NCBI GenBank assembly: GCA_000720535.1
Contig: JOAZ01000007.1
Coordinates: 124,001 to 188,000, forward strand
Length of the DNA: 64,000 nucleotides
Direction of reading: 5' to 3'
From: Streptomyces halstedii
GTDB lineage: Bacteria > Actinomycetota > Actinomycetes > Streptomycetales > Streptomycetaceae
Position 1 is the stretch's first letter. The number at the start of each line of letters is the position of its first letter. Position numbers and translations under genes: made by a program. Below the pieces are notes generated by a model that was not told where the DNA came from, did no database searches, and worked only from the letters and a program-made list of their open reading frames with translations. Below, piece after piece: positions 26,381 to 30,859 of this stretch.

Positions 26381-28003
<1,623 letters not shown>

Positions 28004-28005
28004 TC

Positions 28006-28041
28006 ATTCTGCGGCACCACCGGGGCCTTGCCGCAAGCCCC
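28006..28041 (-). promoter_or_regulatory. Rifamycin-associated element (RAE) with candidate -10 upstream of rox
   Basis: On the minus strand 28041-28022 reads GGGGCTTGCGGCAAGGCCCC, the inverted-repeat RAE known from rifamycin-inducible actinomycete genes. Ten bases further on is CAGAAT (28011-28006), a plausible -10. On the plus strand TATACC (28051-28056) lies at a similar distance, so divergent use is possible. Confidence 0.9.
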
Positions 28042-28064
28042 CTGGTGCGCTATACCTTGAGAGT

Positions 28065-28091
28065 GGCAAGGAGCGGGTATCCCTCCTTGCC
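28065..28091 (+). terminator. Hairpin with short T-run just downstream of the RAE on the plus strand
   Basis: GGCAAGGA (28065-28072) pairs with TCCTTGCC (28084-28091), followed by TTTGT. It would stop any plus-strand transcript leaving the RAE region almost at once, either as an attenuator or as insulation of the DUF5959 gene. Confidence 0.6.
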
Positions 28092-28094
28092 TTT

Positions 28095-28150
28095 GTCATG
28101 TCGGGCCTTCGTCATGTCGGGCCTTCGTCATCTCCGGGCCTTCGGCATGT
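28095..28150. repeat. 16-bp tandem repeat before the DUF5959 gene
   Basis: GTCATGTCGGGCCTTC occurs twice in tandem (28095-28110, 28111-28126). A 17-base variant (28127-28143) and a partial fourth copy (28144-28153) follow. Confidence 0.75.
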
Positions 28151-29240: not shown

Positions 29241-29456
29241 CTACCCGTCGTCACCGGTGGACCCGTTCAGGCCCGGGCGCCGGTTTCTCCCGGAGTGCCG
29301 CACGGCCTTGCCCGCGGCGAGCGTCACGGTCGCCACGGCGCGGGCCCAGCGGGGGCCGCCGCGCTCCGCCCACACCACGCACACGCACCCGCCGACAGCG
29401 AGCGCCAGGACGCCGAGCAGTACCAGAACGACCATGCTTCCCACCTCTGCGTTCAT
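29241..29456 (-). CDS. Small single-pass membrane protein, 71 residues
   Basis: One N-terminal helix (MVVLVLLGVLALAVGGCVCVVW) is followed by a basic, Arg/Gly-rich cytoplasmic tail (RWARAVATVTLAAGKAVRHSGRNRRP). The first ATG (29456) adds MNAEVGS; the ATG at the helix is another possible start. No family was recognised. It lies between the three-helix protein and the DUF6232 pair on the same strand, and its small size and position make it a plausible accessory part of that cluster. Confidence 0.55.
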   Translation of the reverse strand: MNAEVGSMVVLVLLGVLALAVGGCVCVVWAERGGPRWARAVATVTLAAGKAVRHSGRNRRPGLNGSTGDDG

Positions 29457-29687
29457 TCGGTCTGTTCCGCTGATCCTCTCAGGTCGCGCTCGGTCTCATC
29501 CCGGTGGTGGCCGAGAACTTGGGTGCGCTGGGTGCGCCAGTGGCGGCTGTGCTGATCGTCCTTGACGCCGGCCACGACGCCCCGCGCCTGGCCCGCCTCC
29601 TCGCGGGTCCGCCCGTCGCGGTGCGGGGCCCGATGCGTTCCGACCGTGTCGTGCGACGCCCGGCACCGCCCGGCACCGGCGGGGCCG

Positions 29688-30038
29688 TCAGCCCAGCAGT
29701 GCGAGCAGCCGCCCCAGCGCCTCCACGACGGGCCTGCCCACCTCGCCCACGGTCGCCGCGATCTGCGAGACGGACGCCAGGATCATGCCGCGCTCACGCA
29801 GGGCGGCCCGGTCGGGGGTGAGCGCGGGCAGCGCGTTCCCCACGGTCTGGGCCTGGTCCGGGGTGAGCGCCGGGCGCAGGTCGTTGAGGAGGCGGACGAG
29901 GTCCGTCACGGCGGATCGGAGCTCGGTGTCCTGAGCGGTGCCGTCGTTGTGGACGACGGTGCCGTGGTTGATGCCGATGACCTTTTCGCCGCCGTTCACG
30001 TTGACGACGTCTCCGTAATAGTTCGATGTGTCGCTCAT
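29688..30038 (-). CDS. Small helical protein with N-terminal amyloid-like motif, paired with DUF6232
   Basis: A 116-residue soluble protein. Residues about 3-25 (TSNYYGDVVNVNGGEKVIGIN) closely match the last 20 residues of the upstream gene product. The rest is predicted helical (LRSAVTDLVRLLNDLRPALT, ALRERGMILASVSQIAATVGEVGRPVVEALGRLLALLG), with no enzyme motif. Its ATG overlaps the upstream stop (ATGA), so the two proteins are made together. Short Gly/Asn/Val motifs shared by neighbouring genes are a hallmark of bacterial amyloid-signalling pairs. I infer that kind of interaction here, but the motif has not been matched to a named family. Confidence 0.7.
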   Translation of the reverse strand: MSDTSNYYGDVVNVNGGEKVIGINHGTVVHNDGTAQDTELRSAVTDLVRLLNDLRPALTPDQAQTVGNALPALTPDRAALRERGMILASVSQIAATVGEVGRPVVEALGRLLALLG

Positions 30039-30634
30039 AGTTTGATCCCCGTGTTTCCCCTGCCGCCGTTCATGTTGACCACAGAACCGAAGTTGTTCGT
30101 GGTGTTGTACTGCTCAAGGACGGCGGAGAACTCGTATTCCGGGTGGTCGATCGCGTACACGATCTGCCCGGCGATCAGCCGCAGTTCATCCATGGTCGGC
30201 AGTGTCAGGACCACCCTGGAACCGCTGTTCAGCTCGACGATCAGCACCGGCTTCCTCGACGAGAGCAGGACGGCGCAGACAATGACCAGCGTGAACAGGG
30301 TCAGGACGCCCGGGGCGGGGCCGCCGCCCCCGTCCGTGGAGTCGAGCCAGGCGGAGACCAGGAAGGCGAAGACCACCAACAGCAGGAAGTAGACGCCGGC
30401 CTTGCCCCAGGCGGGCTTCAGCCTGAACACCTCGACCCAGCTGATGTTGCGCAACGGGGCCGCCGCCGACCCCACCCACAGGATCTGCCGCTGGACCCGG
30501 AGTTCCAGCGGCTTTCCCCTGCGAGGAGGCAGCGGCATCGGCGGTATCTGAGGAGGCGGCTGAGACGGGGGCCGGGGCGGAGGCTGTGGCGGAGGCCCAG
30601 GAGGTGGTGCGCCGATGCCGCCGGTGTGGTCCAT
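30035..30634 (-). CDS. DUF6232-like membrane protein with C-terminal amyloid-like motif
   Basis: A 199-residue protein. A Pro-rich N-terminus (about residues 8-38) precedes a domain starting LELRVQRQILWVGSAAAPLRNISWVEVFRLKP. Two membrane helices follow (AGVYFLLLVVFAFLVSAWL and GVLTLFTLVIVCAVLLS), then a second cytoplasmic part (VLIVELNSGSRVVLTLPTMDELRLIAGQIVYAID). This matches the DUF6232 layout. It ends NFGSVVNMNGGRGNTGIKL, the same motif that starts the next protein. The arrangement suggests a membrane-anchored scaffold that recruits the helical partner through the motif. The start is the ATG after a G-rich GGGGGGACC. Confidence 0.75.
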   Translation of the reverse strand: MDHTGGIGAPPPGPPPQPPPRPPSQPPPQIPPMPLPPRRGKPLELRVQRQILWVGSAAAPLRNISWVEVFRLKPAWGKAGVYFLLLVVFAFLVSAWLDSTDGGGGPAPGVLTLFTLVIVCAVLLSSRKPVLIVELNSGSRVVLTLPTMDELRLIAGQIVYAIDHPEYEFSAVLEQYNTTNNFGSVVNMNGGRGNTGIKL

Positions 30635-30859
30635 GGTCCCCCCGCGTCGTCACATCCACCCGCGCGGTGCATGGCGCGGGAGCATCATTAAGCCTGTGCG
30701 GGGATGGGGGACGGCAGACGAAATACGGCCAATGTCATCGGCACCGAGCCTCTTCCACGGTGCTCACCCTCCTGCCACCCGTGGCGGGCGCCCGGAACCC
30801 CGGCGGACGAGGTCGAACTACCGCGTGTGCCACCGATGCGCGGGGCCGGGTCCGGCCGG

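Follow-up and report, generated by a model that had tools for sequence, protein, structure and literature searches.

A short motif that ends one protein and begins the next raises the question of whether the two proteins are coupled through it and, if so, whether the coupling is of the amyloid type. Such a case is found in the window, a 64,000-nt stretch of Streptomyces halstedii DNA from contig JOAZ01000007.1, where the earlier note had proposed a prion-like signalling or immunity pair. The analysis described here partly supports that proposal and points to a mobile, amyloid-type signalling switch of two proteins that does without the usual immune receptor.

The gene pair and its common motif

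The upstream gene of the pair (30035..30634, minus strand) codes for a membrane protein of 199 aa and the partner gene (29688..30038, minus strand) for a protein of 116 aa; the pair takes up about 315 codons. The stop codon of the former and the start codon of the latter overlap by four nucleotides, ATGA (30035..30038, minus strand), and from this overlap the two genes are probably co-transcribed. That the window holds two ORFs joined in this way, the first of them a DUF6232 gene, was confirmed for both sets of coordinates and for the family match (PF19744; 57.3 bits against a gathering cut-off of 27.4 in Pfam). Pfam includes an EACC1 model, and when the pair was scanned to an E value of 5, DUF6232 was the only family returned for the 5' gene. 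The partner matched no Pfam family above the cut-off, its best match being a sub-threshold one to DUF5955 (16.2 bits; cut-off 27.1). No toxin–antitoxin family in Pfam or NCBIfam matched the pair, PADLOC gave no match to either window protein at E ≤ 0.1, and we found no paper naming DUF6232 or DUF5955. The DUF6232 gene of the window is the only match to this family in its genome at E ≤ 0.001.

The DUF6232 protein consists of a Pro-rich N-terminus, a PH-like beta domain interrupted by a transmembrane hairpin (approximately residues 76–125) and a disordered C-terminal tail with the motif, whereas the partner consists of an N-terminal motif, a linker and a helical bundle (residues 32–115). In sequence, the N-side flank of the two transmembrane helices is basic, the loop between them acidic and the C-side flank basic. 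The AlphaFold2 model of the partner has pLDDT values of 81–90 per 10-residue block from residue 41 on and of less than 50 for residues 1–31; in the AlphaFold model of the DUF6232 protein the values are below 50 at residues 176–199. Both motifs are disordered in these models of the single proteins and do not come out as ordinary beta-hairpins, the alternative named in the earlier note. Its picture of a membrane scaffold and a helical partner with no NLR agrees with the models and with a scan of the six neighbouring ORFs within ∼ 4 kb in the window, none of which encodes an NB-ARC or NACHT NLR.

The motif makes up the final 20 residues of the DUF6232 protein (NNFGSVVNMNGGRGNTGIKL; 30038..30097, minus strand; profile match with E 2.2e-11) and residues 6–24 of the partner (NYYGDVVNVNGGEKVIGIN; 29967..30023, minus strand; E 4.8e-9). 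An ungapped alignment of the two segments gives N-[NY]-[FY]-G-[SD]-V-V-N-[MV]-N-G-G-x4-G-I, with 10 identical residues out of 18. The similarity reported earlier is real, with a score of 57, above the value of 43.7 that marks the 99.9th percentile when the shuffles of all pairs are pooled, although the consensus first given for it, N-[FY]-[GY]-x-VVN-[MV]-NGG-x4-GI, was shifted by one residue. In the 7.74-Mb genome, a search at E ≤ 10 with a motif profile whose rows include the window's own two copies hit exactly two places, the two motifs of the pair. The motifs contain 13–15% Asn and 21–24% Gly, with little Glu or Pro; the bodies of the proteins contain 1.4–2.3% Asn and ∼ 7% Gly. The sequences show one and the same motif in the C-terminal tail of the membrane protein and at the N-terminus of the partner.

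Recurrence and motif types among relatives

DUF6232 was found in 61 of the 297 genomes of the window organism's family, in 59 of them above the cut-off, and its distribution across the family is sporadic. All 66 loci above the cut-off (window included) were gathered together with 13 named loci reached via the partner, giving 79 loci. One of these (L042) has no DUF6232 ORF, only an intact partner and a tail remnant with the motif in another frame. In 74 of the remaining 78 loci, a gene of 80–140 aa lies directly downstream of the DUF6232 gene, with a junction that is a 4-nt overlap in 67 pairs, a 1-nt overlap in six and a 3-nt gap in one. The other four loci have a CHAT-like ORF (L031), a fused ORF (L040), a frameshifted partner (L044) or no partner at all (L057, in which the tail motif is degenerate). 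In L031, the DUF6232 ORF (2–1189) contains an internal GSVGKA-type motif-like stretch and overlaps the CHAT-like ORF (1057–2199), whose score of 23.0 bits is slightly below the cut-off.

The expectation that the motif would recur in neighbouring genes elsewhere was borne out: with the exception of L028 (whose downstream ORF lacks the motif), L038 and L054, all of the 73 distinct pairs, that is 70, share it beyond 99.9% of shuffles. As controls, the tail motif was scored against the partner body (mean 16.0, maximum 27) and the partner motif against the DUF6232 domain (mean 20.5); a single value among the latter, 44 for L077, is slightly above the shuffle threshold and counts against us. When the motif profile was run over 81 genomes of the genus at E ≤ 0.003, 24 of the 27 matches were in groups of two or three genes lying next to each other. 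Of the other three, L133 is a partner on its own, L134 a copy of DUF6232 with a tail that continues into sequence resembling the partner, and L119 an ORF of partner-like type. In one genome (G715; loci L127 and L135), three overlapping genes in a row (L127:1124–2876, minus strand), two of the DUF6232 type and one partner, all bear the motif. A profile of the RHIM-like subtype, run over 345 genomes of the class at E ≤ 0.001, gave four matches, all in two such pairs, both of which are represented in that profile. No NLR carrying the motif was seen in the 81-genome and 345-genome searches.

Motifs resemble each other more within a locus (mean score 69.6) than between loci (46.6; the maximum of 5000 permutations was 51.9), and the same holds for 42 representatives (70.4 within and 48.0 between, reached by none of 20 000 permutations). 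The motif distances of the two genes are correlated (Mantel 0.78), also when both domain bodies are taken into account (partial 0.36, reached in 0 of 2000 permutations). Compared with the five nearest relatives, however, only 41 of the 73 pairs show a preference for their own partner, which counts against pairwise specificity; the matching is therefore by subtype rather than by individual pair. Matched examples include QYGDHNIGK with QHGDHNIGI, NGPVFHQNGAQNTGI with NGPVFHQTGAQNIGI, and QYGSGSIGKAEHSGSG with a near copy, and the motif types that we distinguish are GDxVN-GG, QxGDHNIG, GSIGKAEHSGSG, NGPVFHQ, RDTFNV, GDKFTGxGYxVNK and DNRGG.

Class-wide, a DUF6232 match was present in 26 of 394 genomes, in 15 of them above the cut-off, including eight in the window's genus. 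The seven genomes above the cut-off outside the family comprise five with a matched pair (L087–L091) and two without; the latter two belong to one distant family and their five loci, counting against a general rule, carry DUF6232 genes that have no motif and are followed by no matching gene. In the same distant actinobacterial family (L082, L083, L106), some of the motif-less DUF6232 genes lie close together in pairs. A sixth out-of-family pair, L093, was reached through a DUF6232 match that falls short of the cut-off. Scores were computed for five of the six, L089, almost a copy of L088, being omitted: own scores are 44–100, none reached by any of 2000 shuffles, and cross scores are 16–30 except between L091 and L093 (50 and 51). 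These two are related, and the L093 tail scores 51 with the L091 partner but 44 with its own, which again counts against pairwise specificity. The five scored pairs represent about four motif types, three of them unlike those of the window's family and the fourth (L090) RHIM-like, a type present inside that family too. Since the two genes of a pair match while the types differ outside the family, the motif is an add-on to the domain, retyped jointly in both genes. Judged from these comparisons, the pairs keep their match while the motif type varies between lineages.

Mobility of the cassette and indirect links to conflict systems

As seen from the window, the pair lies in a cassette of ∼ 1.07 kb (29678..30745, minus strand) made up of a leader of ∼ 110 nt and the two genes. 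Nine window-type loci (L034–L039, L041, L043 and L149) align to the window only over ∼ 29678–30745, one of them reaching 29654, and the tenth locus aligned, L153, which is more distant and lies at the end of a contig, matches 29769–30269 only; L040, L042 and L044 were left out of this comparison. L039 and L149 have ∼ 2.4 kb of flank in common, and because some relatives thus share longer flanks among themselves, the cassette edges given here are the window's edges. The right-hand flank is found in three relatives at 92–93% identity, in stretches that end before the pair. Next to the cassette, a 71-aa ORF (29241–29456, minus strand) has no Pfam match, and the stretch around it (29241–29486) matches on its own, at ∼ 76–86% identity, in at least 15 of 150 genomes of the genus. 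Further away, a stretch of ∼ 90 bp within window positions 28001–28107 occurs at 85–95% identity in several dozen genomes of the genus with surroundings that do not match; it is neither a tRNA nor a member of an Rfam family, both of which were checked.

In L149 and L039, the cassette is flanked on one side by the 3' part of a gene for a Tn3-family transposase (144.9 and 65.2 bits, respectively; cut-off 24) and on the other by a gene for a tyrosine recombinase (32.5 and 34.5 bits; cut-off 27.1). The annotation of plasmid NZ_CP108498.1 shows a Tn3 transposase whose end is ∼ 200 nt ahead of a DUF6232 protein. Close DUF6232 relatives were found on five Streptomyces plasmid records and partner relatives on 26, of which 21, mostly from S. 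clavuligerus, have less than 60% identity. Across these loci, the unit occurs in many genomic contexts, some of them plasmids or sites next to Tn3-family transposases, and is best read as mobile. No third gene recurs beside the pair across lineages, which counts against the signalling reading proposed below.

Two of the ten partners scanned contain EAD1 (L090, 46.4 bits; L091, 58.0 bits; cut-off 24.2), and so does a third, that of L093 (locus L173; 47.8 bits). Partners included, the respective genomes have seven, eight and four copies of EAD1. There is no EAD1 in the window's genome, which counts against the signalling reading, and none in G742; the window's partner has neither an EAD1 domain nor profile similarity to one. 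Seven other EAD1 ORFs from the L090, L091 and L093 genomes were scanned: two carry TIR (one each in the L090 and L093 genomes), one carries EAD2 and one has a sub-threshold STAND match (both in the L090 genome), and the only one from the L091 genome has EAD1 alone. EADs have been proposed to couple effectors via homotypic contacts (PMC7159879, in its available parts). As three partners contain EAD1, an adaptor known from conflict systems can occupy the partner's place, and the helical bundle of the window's partner may act likewise. The link to immunity is indirect, through the three distant EAD1 partners, EAD1-TIR proteins in two genomes, mobile carriage and sporadic distribution.

Competing explanations, proposed mechanism and known systems

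The motifs might resemble each other merely because the coding ends of the two adjacent genes have undergone DNA duplication or gene conversion, and some of the matching is indeed due to DNA exchange, which counts against a purely functional match. In L039, the two motif copies are identical at 46 of 48 nt, a clear case of conversion, as compared with 28–35 of 48 nt at the other eight loci, and the same codon is used at identical residues with a frequency of 0.72 against 0.60 expected from pooled usage. There are also fusions of a recombination type: one annotated protein of S. fungicidicus plasmid p1 (L191:5569–6345) is an in-frame DUF6232-partner fusion in which a single tail motif passes directly into the partner linker and bundle, and L040 is a similar but decayed fusion. 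However, copying alone does not account for the match because the L088 motifs share 18 identical residues but only nine same codons (11.2 expected). The pattern also recurs with unrelated motif types and, at nine window-type loci, the dN/dS of the DUF6232 motif is the lowest measured, 0.19, compared with 0.83 for its domain and 1.79 for the transmembrane hairpin, absolute values being rough owing to codon bias. The partner motif is no more constrained than its body (0.66 vs 0.52 for the bundle), which counts against the signalling reading; still, the explanation by copying, already weakened, is highly improbable.

Natural fusions with a single motif, such as those of p1 and L040, would fit simple docking, in which the two motifs bind each other in a small, discrete beta-arch heterodimer and so anchor the helical protein at the membrane, with neither templating nor a polymer. 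Matched motifs require pairing only, and the match within pairs and the conserved DUF6232 motif would fit any specific interface. Such docking is nevertheless rather unlikely, given that both motifs are predicted to be disordered alone, that their Asn/Gly-rich, Glu/Pro-poor composition and C-/N-terminal layout resemble published amyloid signalling pairs and that homotypic stacking is suggested by the presence of similar motifs on both proteins. A toxin–antitoxin or maintenance module of mobile elements, with DUF6232 as a membrane toxin kept inactive by the partner via the common motif, is a less probable alternative still. The pair does consist of two small, adjacent and overlapping genes on mobile DNA, as in toxin–antitoxin systems, and its sporadic presence, cassette edges, Tn3-family neighbours, plasmids and lone or decayed copies (L028, L057, L134) are in line with this idea; against it stand the absence of a toxin–antitoxin family match, EAD1 partners that are not antitoxin-like, matched homotypic motifs that are not obviously needed for a toxin–antitoxin bond and the persistence of the pair at many chromosomal loci.

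We therefore lean slightly towards a two-gene, NLR-independent signalling cassette coupled by the motif. Homotypic coupling of the two proteins through their motifs is very probable, and DUF6232 is probably the effector rather than the sensor; the chances are about even that the assembly is an amyloid-type polymer rather than a discrete complex, and equally balanced for a role in conflict or cell death. Amyloid assembly, the direction of signalling and the immune role are what we infer in the following scheme. The charges flanking the transmembrane helices would give the motif a cytosolic position next to the partner, which with its N-terminal motif would occupy the position of the receptor. 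A signal would be sensed or relayed by the helical bundle of the partner (in some relatives by EAD1); the partner motif would then nucleate a cross-beta assembly, recruiting and templating the tails of membrane-embedded DUF6232. The resulting clustering could rearrange the transmembrane hairpin and either disturb the membrane or build a membrane signalling centre, leading to growth arrest or cell killing.

More tentatively, the pair may belong to a widespread class of transposon- or plasmid-carried prion-like cassettes of multicellular actinobacteria that have no need of an NLR. In these, a PH-like membrane protein and a small adaptor would be joined by an interchangeable amyloid plug, retyped in both genes, to give insulated parallel switches, some of them plugged into EAD1/TIR immunity. 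A review (PMC7889193, in its available parts) asks whether bacterial signalling amyloids exist in NLR-independent pathways, and the DUF6232 pair is a concrete candidate: it is self-contained, occurs in Streptomyces, which is easily handled in the laboratory, and offers dozens of natural pairs, several differing in motif type, that suit tests of seeding specificity. As such, it would also point to a function for DUF6232 and connect amyloid-type motifs with the conflict network of EAD1. We found no publication describing this pair; an earlier mention is possible in the 2020 bacterial-amyloid paper, which lay outside the search.

Among known systems, those coupled by EADs (Kaur et al., 2020, PMC7159879, as far as its available parts go) likewise have small adaptors joined by homotypic contacts; the L090, L091 and L093 partners bear EAD1, and adjacent copies tend to match each other best. 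Here, in contrast, the coupling is via a motif of ∼ 20 residues and the window's partner is not an EAD1 protein. The EACC1 membrane-associated system, in the same parts of PMC7159879, is also an actinobacterial two-gene system with a 5' membrane component, but EACC1 has one transmembrane helix and its 3' gene frequently is of the caspase type, whereas the DUF6232 pair combines a transmembrane hairpin with a small helical bundle that is not of the caspase type by Pfam scan and AlphaFold2 model. The fungal HET-S/NWD2, HELLP/PNT1 and sigma pairs, in the available text of PMC7889193, resemble our pair in their motif-sharing C- and N-termini and membrane-acting component. They differ in that no HeLo domain and no NLR was found here and the window motif has no sequence match to the sigma peptide.

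The founding paper on bacterial amyloid signalling (BASS) pairs is reportedly that of Dyrka et al. from 2020. In the available parts of later accounts, these pairs consist of a Bell effector and an NLR (PMC7889193, PMC8086366, PMC12261475), with the tail motif on the upstream membrane-acting protein and the head motif on the next one (the same sources and PMC9815663). The DUF6232 pair is like them in that a short motif stands both at the C-terminus of the first gene product and at the N-terminus of the second, the genes being adjacent or overlapping, in the order of the two, in having several unrelated motif families and in its occurrence in filamentous actinobacteria. The RHIM-like subtype profile matches the published amyloid-forming BASS3 peptide with 8.1 bits, a score reached by three of 3000 shuffles; counting against a closer tie, no match to any of four published peptides was obtained with the window-type profile (BASS3 0.1 bits, sigma 1.9 bits, values that shuffles often reach). 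Unlike BASS, the pair has no NLR, the 116-aa partner being without an NLR domain; its upstream protein is modelled as a PH-like beta domain with a transmembrane hairpin where BASS effectors have a helical Bell domain, its downstream protein is a small helical bundle or an EAD1 protein, and the unit is a mobile cassette. By analogy, the DUF6232 pair may thus work like an amyloid signalling pair, yet we do not class it as a member of BASS.
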